Assembly: GCF_900184265.1 (NCBI RefSeq)
Contig: NZ_FXXA01000002.1
Location: 310,001 to 374,000, forward strand
DNA from: Eggerthella timonensis
GTDB taxonomy: Bacteria > Actinomycetota > Coriobacteriia > Coriobacteriales > Eggerthellaceae
Length of the DNA: 64,000 nt
Reading direction: 5' to 3'
Of this stretch, positions 30,801-40,370 are shown piece after piece; position 1 is the stretch's first letter; every line of letters begins with the position of its first letter. The translations under genes were made by a program, and so were the position numbers. Under the pieces are notes generated by a model. That model worked only from the letters and a program-made list of their open reading frames with translations. It did no database searches and was not told where the DNA came from.

Positions 30801-30826
30801 ACGAATGTTTCACGTGAAACATTCGT
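30801..30826. promoter_or_regulatory. parS centromere site
   Basis: A 26-bp perfect palindrome whose centre, TGTTTCACGTGAAACA (30806-30821), matches the universal chromosomal parS consensus bound by ParB/Spo0J. It lies between EncFtn and the encapsulin gene. A second identical 16-mer is at 39820-39835. Such sites cluster near oriC. Confidence 0.92.
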
Positions 30827-39749: not shown

Positions 39750-39829
39750 AGCCCTCCCCGCCAACCCTCCTCCCTCGGATGTTTCACGTAGCCCTCCCCG
39801 CCAACCCTCCTCCCTCGGATGTTTCACGT
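39750..39829. repeat. Perfect 40-bp tandem duplication ending in parS sequence
   Basis: Units 39750-39789 and 39790-39829 are identical. Each ends in GGATGTTTCACGT, the left half of parS. Only the second unit continues into the right half, so the first copy is a truncated parS. Confidence 0.92.
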
Positions 39830-39840
39830 GAAACATCCGA
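39815..39840. promoter_or_regulatory. parS centromere site (second copy)
   Basis: A 26-bp perfect palindrome centred on TGTTTCACGTGAAACA (39820-39835), identical to the site at 30806. The flanking bases differ from those of the first copy, so it is not part of a longer shared repeat. Confidence 0.92.
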
Positions 39841-39871
39841 CGTTGCGCGATGCCGCCGTCAAACGACGGTG

Positions 39872-40000
39872 AAAACCCGCTGGATTTCGCGGCAAAGCAC
39901 GTATAAACCGCGCTGGATCCGGAGGCAACCCGCGTGGAATCCGCGTGGGAAACCCGTTGGATGCGCGTAAGATCGAGAAAGCTCTGCGCTGGATGTGCGC
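39872..40000. repeat. Cluster of five degenerate CGCTGGAT repeats
   Basis: AAACCCGCTGGATTTCGCGG-like units begin near 39872, 39905, 39927, 39950 and 39981, spaced 22-33 nt, each with a GCTGGAT, GTTGGAT or CGTGGAAT core followed by a GC-rich stretch. They sit directly beside parS. Function unknown. Confidence 0.5.
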
Positions 40001-40115
40001 CATCTGCGCATAAGACGGGGTCGTTATACTGGGAAGCACGAACCCGCCAGGCGGGGAGGATCGCACCCTCTTTACATCCATTTCCGATTCTAGACAACGG
40101 AAGGGGGTGTCCTCT

Positions 40116-40277
40116 ATGAATGGTATATTGCTGGATCTTATCGGGGTAGTCTTGCAGGTTCTCGGCTTGATGGTGGCTTTCGGCAGCCTGATGGTCGGGG
40201 CGGCTGCGCTCGCGCTTCAAGCGCTGTCGAAAGATACGCCCCGGTCGTCCCAAGAGGACGAACCGGGACCACAATAA
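40116..40277 (+). CDS. Small hydrophobic peptide, candidate type I toxin
   Basis: A 53-residue peptide: a single long hydrophobic stretch (about residues 4-41, with LMVAFGSLMVGAAALALQAL) and a short charged polar tail (SKDTPRSSQEDEPGPQ). The LMxxFGxLM pattern, membrane helix and tail resemble the small holin-like type I toxins of Gram-positive bacteria, but I cannot confirm homology. AAGGGGGTG precedes the ATG, and TATACT at 40025-40030 gives a leader of about 80 nt that can fold. A 3' stem-loop follows, and a strong promoter on the opposite strand points back into the gene. An ordinary small membrane protein is the alternative. Confidence 0.6.
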   Translation: MNGILLDLIGVVLQVLGLMVAFGSLMVGAAALALQALSKDTPRSSQEDEPGPQ

Positions 40278-40303
40278 CATCCGAACCGCCGAAGCGAGTC
40301 CGA

Positions 40304-40335
40304 GAGCCGTGGGGAGCACCACCTCCCTGCGGCTC
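40304..40335 (+). terminator. 3' stem-loop of the small peptide gene
   Basis: GAGCCGTGGGGAG pairs with CTCCCTGCGGCTC over 13 bp, with two G-U pairs only when transcribed from the plus strand and a 6-nt loop CACCAC. It is followed by GCCTGTATTATATA. It would also form the 5' end region of the antisense RNA. Confidence 0.6.
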
Positions 40336-40341
40336 GCCTGT

Positions 40342-40370
40342 ATTATATACGCTGCACCAACCGGCTTCAA
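40342..40370 (-). promoter_or_regulatory. Antisense promoter facing the small peptide gene
   Basis: On the minus strand, TTGAAG (complement of 40365-40370), a 17-nt spacer and TATAAT (complement of 40342-40347) form a near-consensus promoter. No minus-strand gene lies downstream before the convergent EamA gene, so the product should be a noncoding RNA antisense to the 3' end of the 53-residue gene. Confidence 0.7.

Follow-up and report, generated by a model that had tools for sequence, protein, structure and literature searches.

A predicted type I toxin-antitoxin family of Eggerthellaceae with a toxin promoter resembling those of DNA-uptake and recombination genes

Eggerthella is a common genus of the human gut. 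A 64-kb window of DNA from this genus (bases 310001-374000 of contig C2, genome G000) contains a gene for a 53-residue membrane peptide that faces a convergent promoter. We propose, with a probability of about 0.8, that this is a chromosomal type I toxin-antitoxin (TA) locus, the toxin promoter of which belongs, most likely, to a competence/recombination-like regulon. The parts of the proposal supported by the sequence are the family of related loci, the conservation of the reading frame, the antisense promoter, the pairing in the leader and the shared toxin promoter. The first-pass annotation of the region had described one candidate type I locus. This interpretation is supported at the sequence level, and the observation is confirmed to be larger than stated: the single locus is a member of a multi-copy family with a shared promoter.

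The features of the window locus are listed in Table 1. The open reading frame with its Shine-Dalgarno sequence, the 3′ stem-loop and the convergent minus-strand promoter are present as annotated. The latter is the sole promoter-like match within 2.5 kb (0.2 expected), and the same arrangement is found at 58 loci. The leader, which had been called structured, is indeed so: the fold of 351 nt gave a z-score of -3.8, and the unpaired probability of the Shine-Dalgarno sequence is 0.01 versus 0.35 in shuffled sequences. Relatives keep both the frame of the peptide and the antisense promoter, a point that the first-pass annotation had asked to be checked. The likeness to the layout of txpA/RatA and bsrG/SR4 holds at the DNA level, with a convergent order of promoters and hairpins at all intact loci. 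From the hexamers, from which all transcription start sites given here derive, the toxin mRNA is expected to start near position 40037. Both predicted terminators have weak U tracts, and hairpins similar to the one taken as the antisense 3′ end occur at the same position in the other two toxin classes described below.

Table 1. Features of the window locus (window coordinates) and, in the last line, further phased arrays on contig C2
Feature	Position	Strand	Details and evidence
parS palindrome TGTTTCACGTGAAACA	39820-39835	strandless	
Degenerate 11-bp phased repeat array (GCG[CT]xGGA[AT]xC type), upstream of toxin promoter	39836-40020	+	AT autocorrelation
Toxin promoter of the shared class	39979-40031	+	GCGCCAT block 39997-40003, -10 TATACT 40025-40030; R2 match of 50.0 bits, the window copy itself being among the training sequences; alignment A4
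5′ leader pairing over the Shine-Dalgarno sequence (GCACCC with GGGTGT; GAGGA with TCCTC)	40055-40115	+	Shared fold and compensating changes
Toxin-like membrane peptide gene, class A, 53 aa	40116-40277	+	Shine-Dalgarno GGAAGGGGGTG; dN/dS; hydropathy
3′ stem-loop of toxin mRNA; its complement is the antisense RNA 5′ hairpin	40305-40336	+	Alignment A3, pair counts
Antisense promoter	40342-40370	-	-35 TTGAAG 40370-40365, 17 bp, -10 TATAAT 40347-40342
Predicted antisense antitoxin RNA, ~107 nt	40229-40336	-	Inferred start near 40335; conserved block, model R1
GC-rich hairpin with weak U tail inside the last toxin codons, taken as antisense 3′ end	40239-40267	-	
11-bp arrays without the full R2 core, contig C2 of G000	2371100 (L141/L190), 2003400 (L129/L191), 1728200 (L137), 2763000 (L125)		

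A protein search revealed that the peptide recurs across the genus, with several copies in the genome G001. The intact copies of this type, designated class A, have the common C-terminal pattern KDxPRSxxxDEPG. When the predicted antisense RNA was used as a DNA query, it gave 7-11 matches per Eggerthella genome and also matched loci in another genus (G010). In all, each Eggerthella genome has 6-11 related loci, a threshold-dependent count and not a census. Only part of the matching loci encode the peptide of the window type. The others have the same antisense promoter and the same first 60 nt, followed by different 3′ parts which encode two further small membrane peptides on the opposite strand. 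There are thus three main toxin classes of 36-53 aa: class A with 53 aa, class B with 41 aa (for example MTVLEFIALVALLLEFASRVIEFVLVIKDALLTHRGKERHQ) and class C with 36 aa (for example MTVLALIAAILEFASSLLGFLTAIMERLPIRKDKEP). R1, a covariance model of the conserved 70-nt antisense block, gave matches in eight Eggerthellaceae genera at E 0.001, one or two of the genera having weak matches only, and none outside Eggerthellaceae among 249 genomes of 100 genera sampled evenly across the order. Members of the family are also found in Eggerthella sinensis and in two Gordonibacter genomes. No match to the family was obtained in phage, plasmid or viral-contig collections. Apart from two tRNAs in the window, Rfam scans of the window and of eight family loci gave no match.

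Several loci (L016, L017, L021, L024, L051, L066 and L068) are remnants in which the antisense promoter and RNA are kept and the 5′ half of the toxin gene is lost; they may possibly be orphan antitoxins. The impression that antisense genes outlive their toxins is biased, because the remnants were found by a search with the antisense sequence. The toxin leaders of L059 and L091, which represent two genera and two toxin classes, contain the same insertion of about 110 bp (AACAGCA...GCTGTTT...CGTATGGTGCGC.TTGCCGGAAG), which looks like a small mobile repeat.

Judged by their sequences, the peptides are under selection, with dN/dS values outside the antisense overlap of 0.40, 0.45 and 0.41 in classes A, B and C, respectively. 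Type I toxins are generally shorter than 60 aa and have a putative membrane helix; the 53-, 41- and 36-aa peptides are of this kind. Each peptide has one strongly hydrophobic stretch, with maximal 19-residue hydropathy values of 2.49 (A), 2.19 (B) and 2.28 (C). The net charge of the class A peptide is -3; many membrane type I toxins have cationic tails. Formal membership in the Pfam family Hol_Tox (PF16935, Putative Holin-like Toxin) was rejected, since the window peptide scored 15.3 bits against a cut-off of 23.3; there is at most a resemblance. Ten other family members gave no Hol_Tox match at all.

The Shine-Dalgarno sequence is hidden to a different extent in the three classes. Its mean unpaired probability is 0.04 in class A leaders versus 0.31 in shuffled leaders. 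The hiding is weaker in class C (0.15 versus 0.30), and in class B the sequence is not hidden beyond chance when compared with shuffles (0.30 versus 0.32). The stem over the Shine-Dalgarno sequence is kept in all ten class A leaders examined, and its pairs change in a compensating manner, from GCACCC/GGGTGT to CACCTC/GAGGTG in L004 and L117 and to CACCCC/GGGGTG in Gordonibacter. A sequestering leader that would block translation as in bsrG was therefore found in class A only, with a weak form in class C. Leaders of classes A and B also contain a conserved ATTCTAGA box in the leader loop, just before the Shine-Dalgarno arm (about 40087-40094 in the window).

The promoter and the RNA block of the predicted antisense gene are conserved across 58 loci, which are not fully independent as some class C flanks are related. 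A -10 element with at least four of six matches is present in 55 of them (10.8 expected after shuffling), and in 46 a TTG lies 16-18 bp upstream of it; shuffling predicts both elements at about 0.7 loci. The promoter spacers and the outer flanks are mostly locus-specific. Ten of the twelve loci without TTG at this distance come from the Gordonibacter genus group, and all ten have the -10 element. At nine of the ten (L082, L083, L088, L089, L101, L109, L110, L111 and L113) the -35 position has a conserved ATAAGTGGCA-type motif instead of TTG, followed by a TGCTATAAT-like -10 element. The antisense RNA is expected to start near the conserved CAGGCGAGCC block. The stem of its 5′ hairpin hardly varies between loci; the loop is variable. 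The original, Eggerthella-heavy alignment contained no two-sided changes in the stem pairs; compensatory changes were found in other genera, with AGCCGCACGGAG/CTCCGCACGGCT in G106 and G147 and GGATCG/CGATCC in L088. This pattern of conservation indicates that the antisense gene is under selection. At 56 of the 58 loci the hairpin is stabler on the mRNA strand, because C-A mismatches of the antisense strand become G-U pairs there; therefore it probably also forms the 3′ end of the toxin mRNA.

Antisense RNAs are known to use YUNR loops for recognition. This motif occurs in 42 of the 58 hairpin loops, where shuffling of the loops predicts 16, and, when each distinct loop is counted once, in 19 of 31 (8.3 expected). 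The loops are nearly all distinct within Eggerthella genomes, which is not so in G089, G094 and G095. We suggest that the loop may serve as a specificity code between paralogues.

The toxin promoters of all three classes have a -10 element TATACT or TATCAT preceded by a GCRCGCCAT block, and they lie behind 200-300 bp of degenerate repeats phased at 11 bp. Over 29 loci, the AT autocorrelation has its peaks at lags of 11, 22 and 33; within the 64-kb window, no other place has as strong an 11-bp signal as the locus described here. The repeat-pair pattern occurs 39 times in G000, as against 2 occurrences for the reversed control, and recA, com-like and TA genes are located beside these places. To test the association without the repeat-pair prior, a sequence-only model, R2, was trained on 19 toxin promoters. 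R2 gave 12 matches above 25 bits in G000 and then none above 17; in G001 it gave 19 matches above 26 bits and then none above 18.2. Ten of the G001 matches are type I loci. The other nine are a HicA locus, a DUF4160 gene, a PIN-like locus (assigned by eye, without a Pfam match), rpsF-ssb, recA, a Gp49/HigB locus with its HTH partner, the Tad pilus gene cpaB, comEA-comEC and comM. The set in G000 is nearly the same; it lacks the Gp49 locus and additionally contains a DUF4160 remnant and a pair of a BrnT-like gene, recognized by eye, and an RHH gene, recognized by Pfam. In G006, R1 had no match at the threshold used, yet R2 had seven, including recA, RelB, two Gp49 loci and an AbiEi locus. Further R2 matches are a PemK locus in G089 and recA and comEA in G108. 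Since the training set contained type I loci only, there is no circularity in linking the promoter to uptake, recombination and TA genes.

Two more groups of genes were seen beside such sequences. R2-type promoters precede large secreted adhesin-like proteins at L217 (G006) and L222 (G108), from two other genera. Arrays without the full R2 core (Table 1, last line) lie upstream of genes for a Y-family polymerase, a comF-like and a sigma-factor-like protein and of one further gene.

The toxin promoter is thus held in common with DNA-uptake genes, as in competence-regulated TA systems: R2 reaches comEA, comM, ssb, recA and cpaB. On the basis of this gene content, we lean towards a competence/recombination regulon of Eggerthellaceae, in which the array and the GCRCGCCAT-N(21)-TATACT promoter would drive comEA-comEC, comM, the Tad pilus, recA, ssb and dispersed TA modules. 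The modules that such a regulon would contain, namely the new type I family, several type II families and, in another genus, a type IV-like AbiE locus, fit this proposal. The recA gene has a LexA-like box (CAAACATATGTTCG) at a separate second promoter. None of the 58 TA loci has such a box, and LexA control of the toxins was rejected on this ground.

The locus had also been described as lying next to parS near the origin. The palindrome does adjoin it; dnaA is located at 540.8 kb of contig C2 and the locus at 350.1 kb, a separation of 191 kb, so the locus is not at the origin. The proximity to parS is itself weakly informative, because 125 exact copies are present in G000, two of them in the window (one at 30806-30821, the other beside the locus). 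With one mismatch allowed, there are 113-157 copies per genome of the genus and none for the reversed control. The copy number in G000 is far above the usual chromosome level, and a dense cluster of them lies around dnaA, at 529-543 kb of C2. The distance between parS and the antisense start is nearly fixed (512-523 bp) only at Eggerthella class A loci. As parS is absent at this offset in classes B and C, and is not generally found at other R2 promoters, and as the copies are so numerous, a role as functional partner was rejected. We regard the link as mostly incidental or as hitch-hiking with the element.

Three other explanations have to be weighed. The loci are multi-copy and dispersed and include truncated remnants, as would be expected of a non-coding mobile or REP-like element, the frame and the promoter-like motifs of which would be by-products of its spread. 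We consider this very improbable, since three divergent peptide classes keep the start, the Shine-Dalgarno sequence and the frame with a dN/dS of about 0.4, the -35/-10 pair is kept while the spacer and flanks vary, and the leader contains compensatory changes. It is also improbable that the peptide acts in regulation and not as a toxin, for instance as a small membrane protein that modulates the DNA-uptake machinery, with the convergent RNA only tuning its expression. The promoter class in common with comEA, comM and cpaB would suit such a protein, as would the net negative tail of a peptide whose toxicity is a prediction. However, many divergent paralogues per genome, decayed copies and an antisense gene at every copy are typical of TA systems, and so are the hidden Shine-Dalgarno sequence of class A and a promoter class that also includes type II TA modules.

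The third explanation concerns the inducing signal and would leave the TA mechanism unchanged. The shared promoter might be a LexA-independent DNA-damage promoter, with a PafBC-like role, instead of a competence promoter. Its ties to recA, ssb and, through the phased array, the Y-family polymerase gene would be in line with this, and TA genes are often stress-induced. Nevertheless, the presence of comEA-comEC, comM and cpaB (Tad pilus) in the promoter class speaks for DNA uptake, and the LexA-like box of recA is separate and found at none of the 58 TA loci. We regard a DNA-damage promoter as rather unlikely.

For the type I TA locus that we propose, transcription, RNA pairing and decay, membrane toxicity and the inducing signal are inferred parts of the following model. 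The plus-strand mRNA would encode the 53-aa membrane peptide, with a leader that hides the ribosome-binding site and a strong stem-loop at the end. A constitutive-looking sigma-70 promoter just beyond it would drive the convergent RNA of about 107 nt over the 3′ stem-loop, the stop codon and the last codons. This RNA would pair with the toxin mRNA, the variable YUNR-type loop being the likely first contact, and pairing would lead to decay of the mRNA, as RatA does with txpA mRNA. The opposing RNA gene thus probably silences the toxin-like gene. As the toxin promoter class is common with recA, ssb, com, pilus and TA genes, the toxin mRNA would rise upon induction of this regulon, most likely one for competence/recombination, and titrate the antisense RNA.

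This family of tiny membrane peptides with opposing RNA genes is apparently undescribed so far. In the open-access literature we found no type I TA system for Coriobacteriia, no description of this family or regulon, and no work on competence in Eggerthella itself, the genus being only mentioned in a review. Among the databases, Rfam gave no match for the family and Pfam one weak, sub-threshold match. How cis-antisense RNAs escape cross-talk could be studied with the paralogues that this family readily supplies. When and why chromosomal TA modules are switched on is an old question, to which the shared promoter suggests an answer open to direct testing: here, apparently, together with DNA uptake. 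The findings also hint that Eggerthella has a competence programme and a regulator not described so far; if this is true, entry into the DNA-uptake state would arm growth-arrest toxins.

The closest layout is that of the Bacillus subtilis type I systems txpA/RatA and bsrG/SR4 (review PMC6562991). As in these systems, the predicted toxin is shorter than 60 aa with a putative membrane helix, and the predicted convergent RNAs would overlap at the 3′ end of the toxin gene (PMC6562991); the Shine-Dalgarno sequence sequestered in class A leaders resembles bsrG. Unlike them, the Eggerthellaceae family lies below the Hol_Tox score, combines three toxin classes with one antisense 5′ domain, and has, behind an array phased at 11 bp, a toxin promoter of the class also found at com and recA genes. 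The LexA-controlled type I systems tisB/IstR-1 and dinQ/AgrB of E. coli (PMC8309996) are similar in that the toxin has a stress-type promoter, of a class to which that of recA also belongs, and the antitoxin RNA one that seems constitutive. In contrast to tisB and dinQ, the Eggerthellaceae loci have no LexA-like box (0 of 58), the predicted antisense RNA overlaps the 3′ end and not the 5′ region, and the com and pilus genes in the promoter class suggest competence and not SOS. In its placement under a promoter class of DNA-uptake genes, the family resembles toxTA (HI0660/HI0659), the competence-regulated type II TA module of Haemophilus influenzae (PMC6957337). CRP and Sxy control toxTA, a single type II operon; in Eggerthellaceae, one promoter class serves type I families, several type II loci and, in another genus, a type IV-like AbiE locus.
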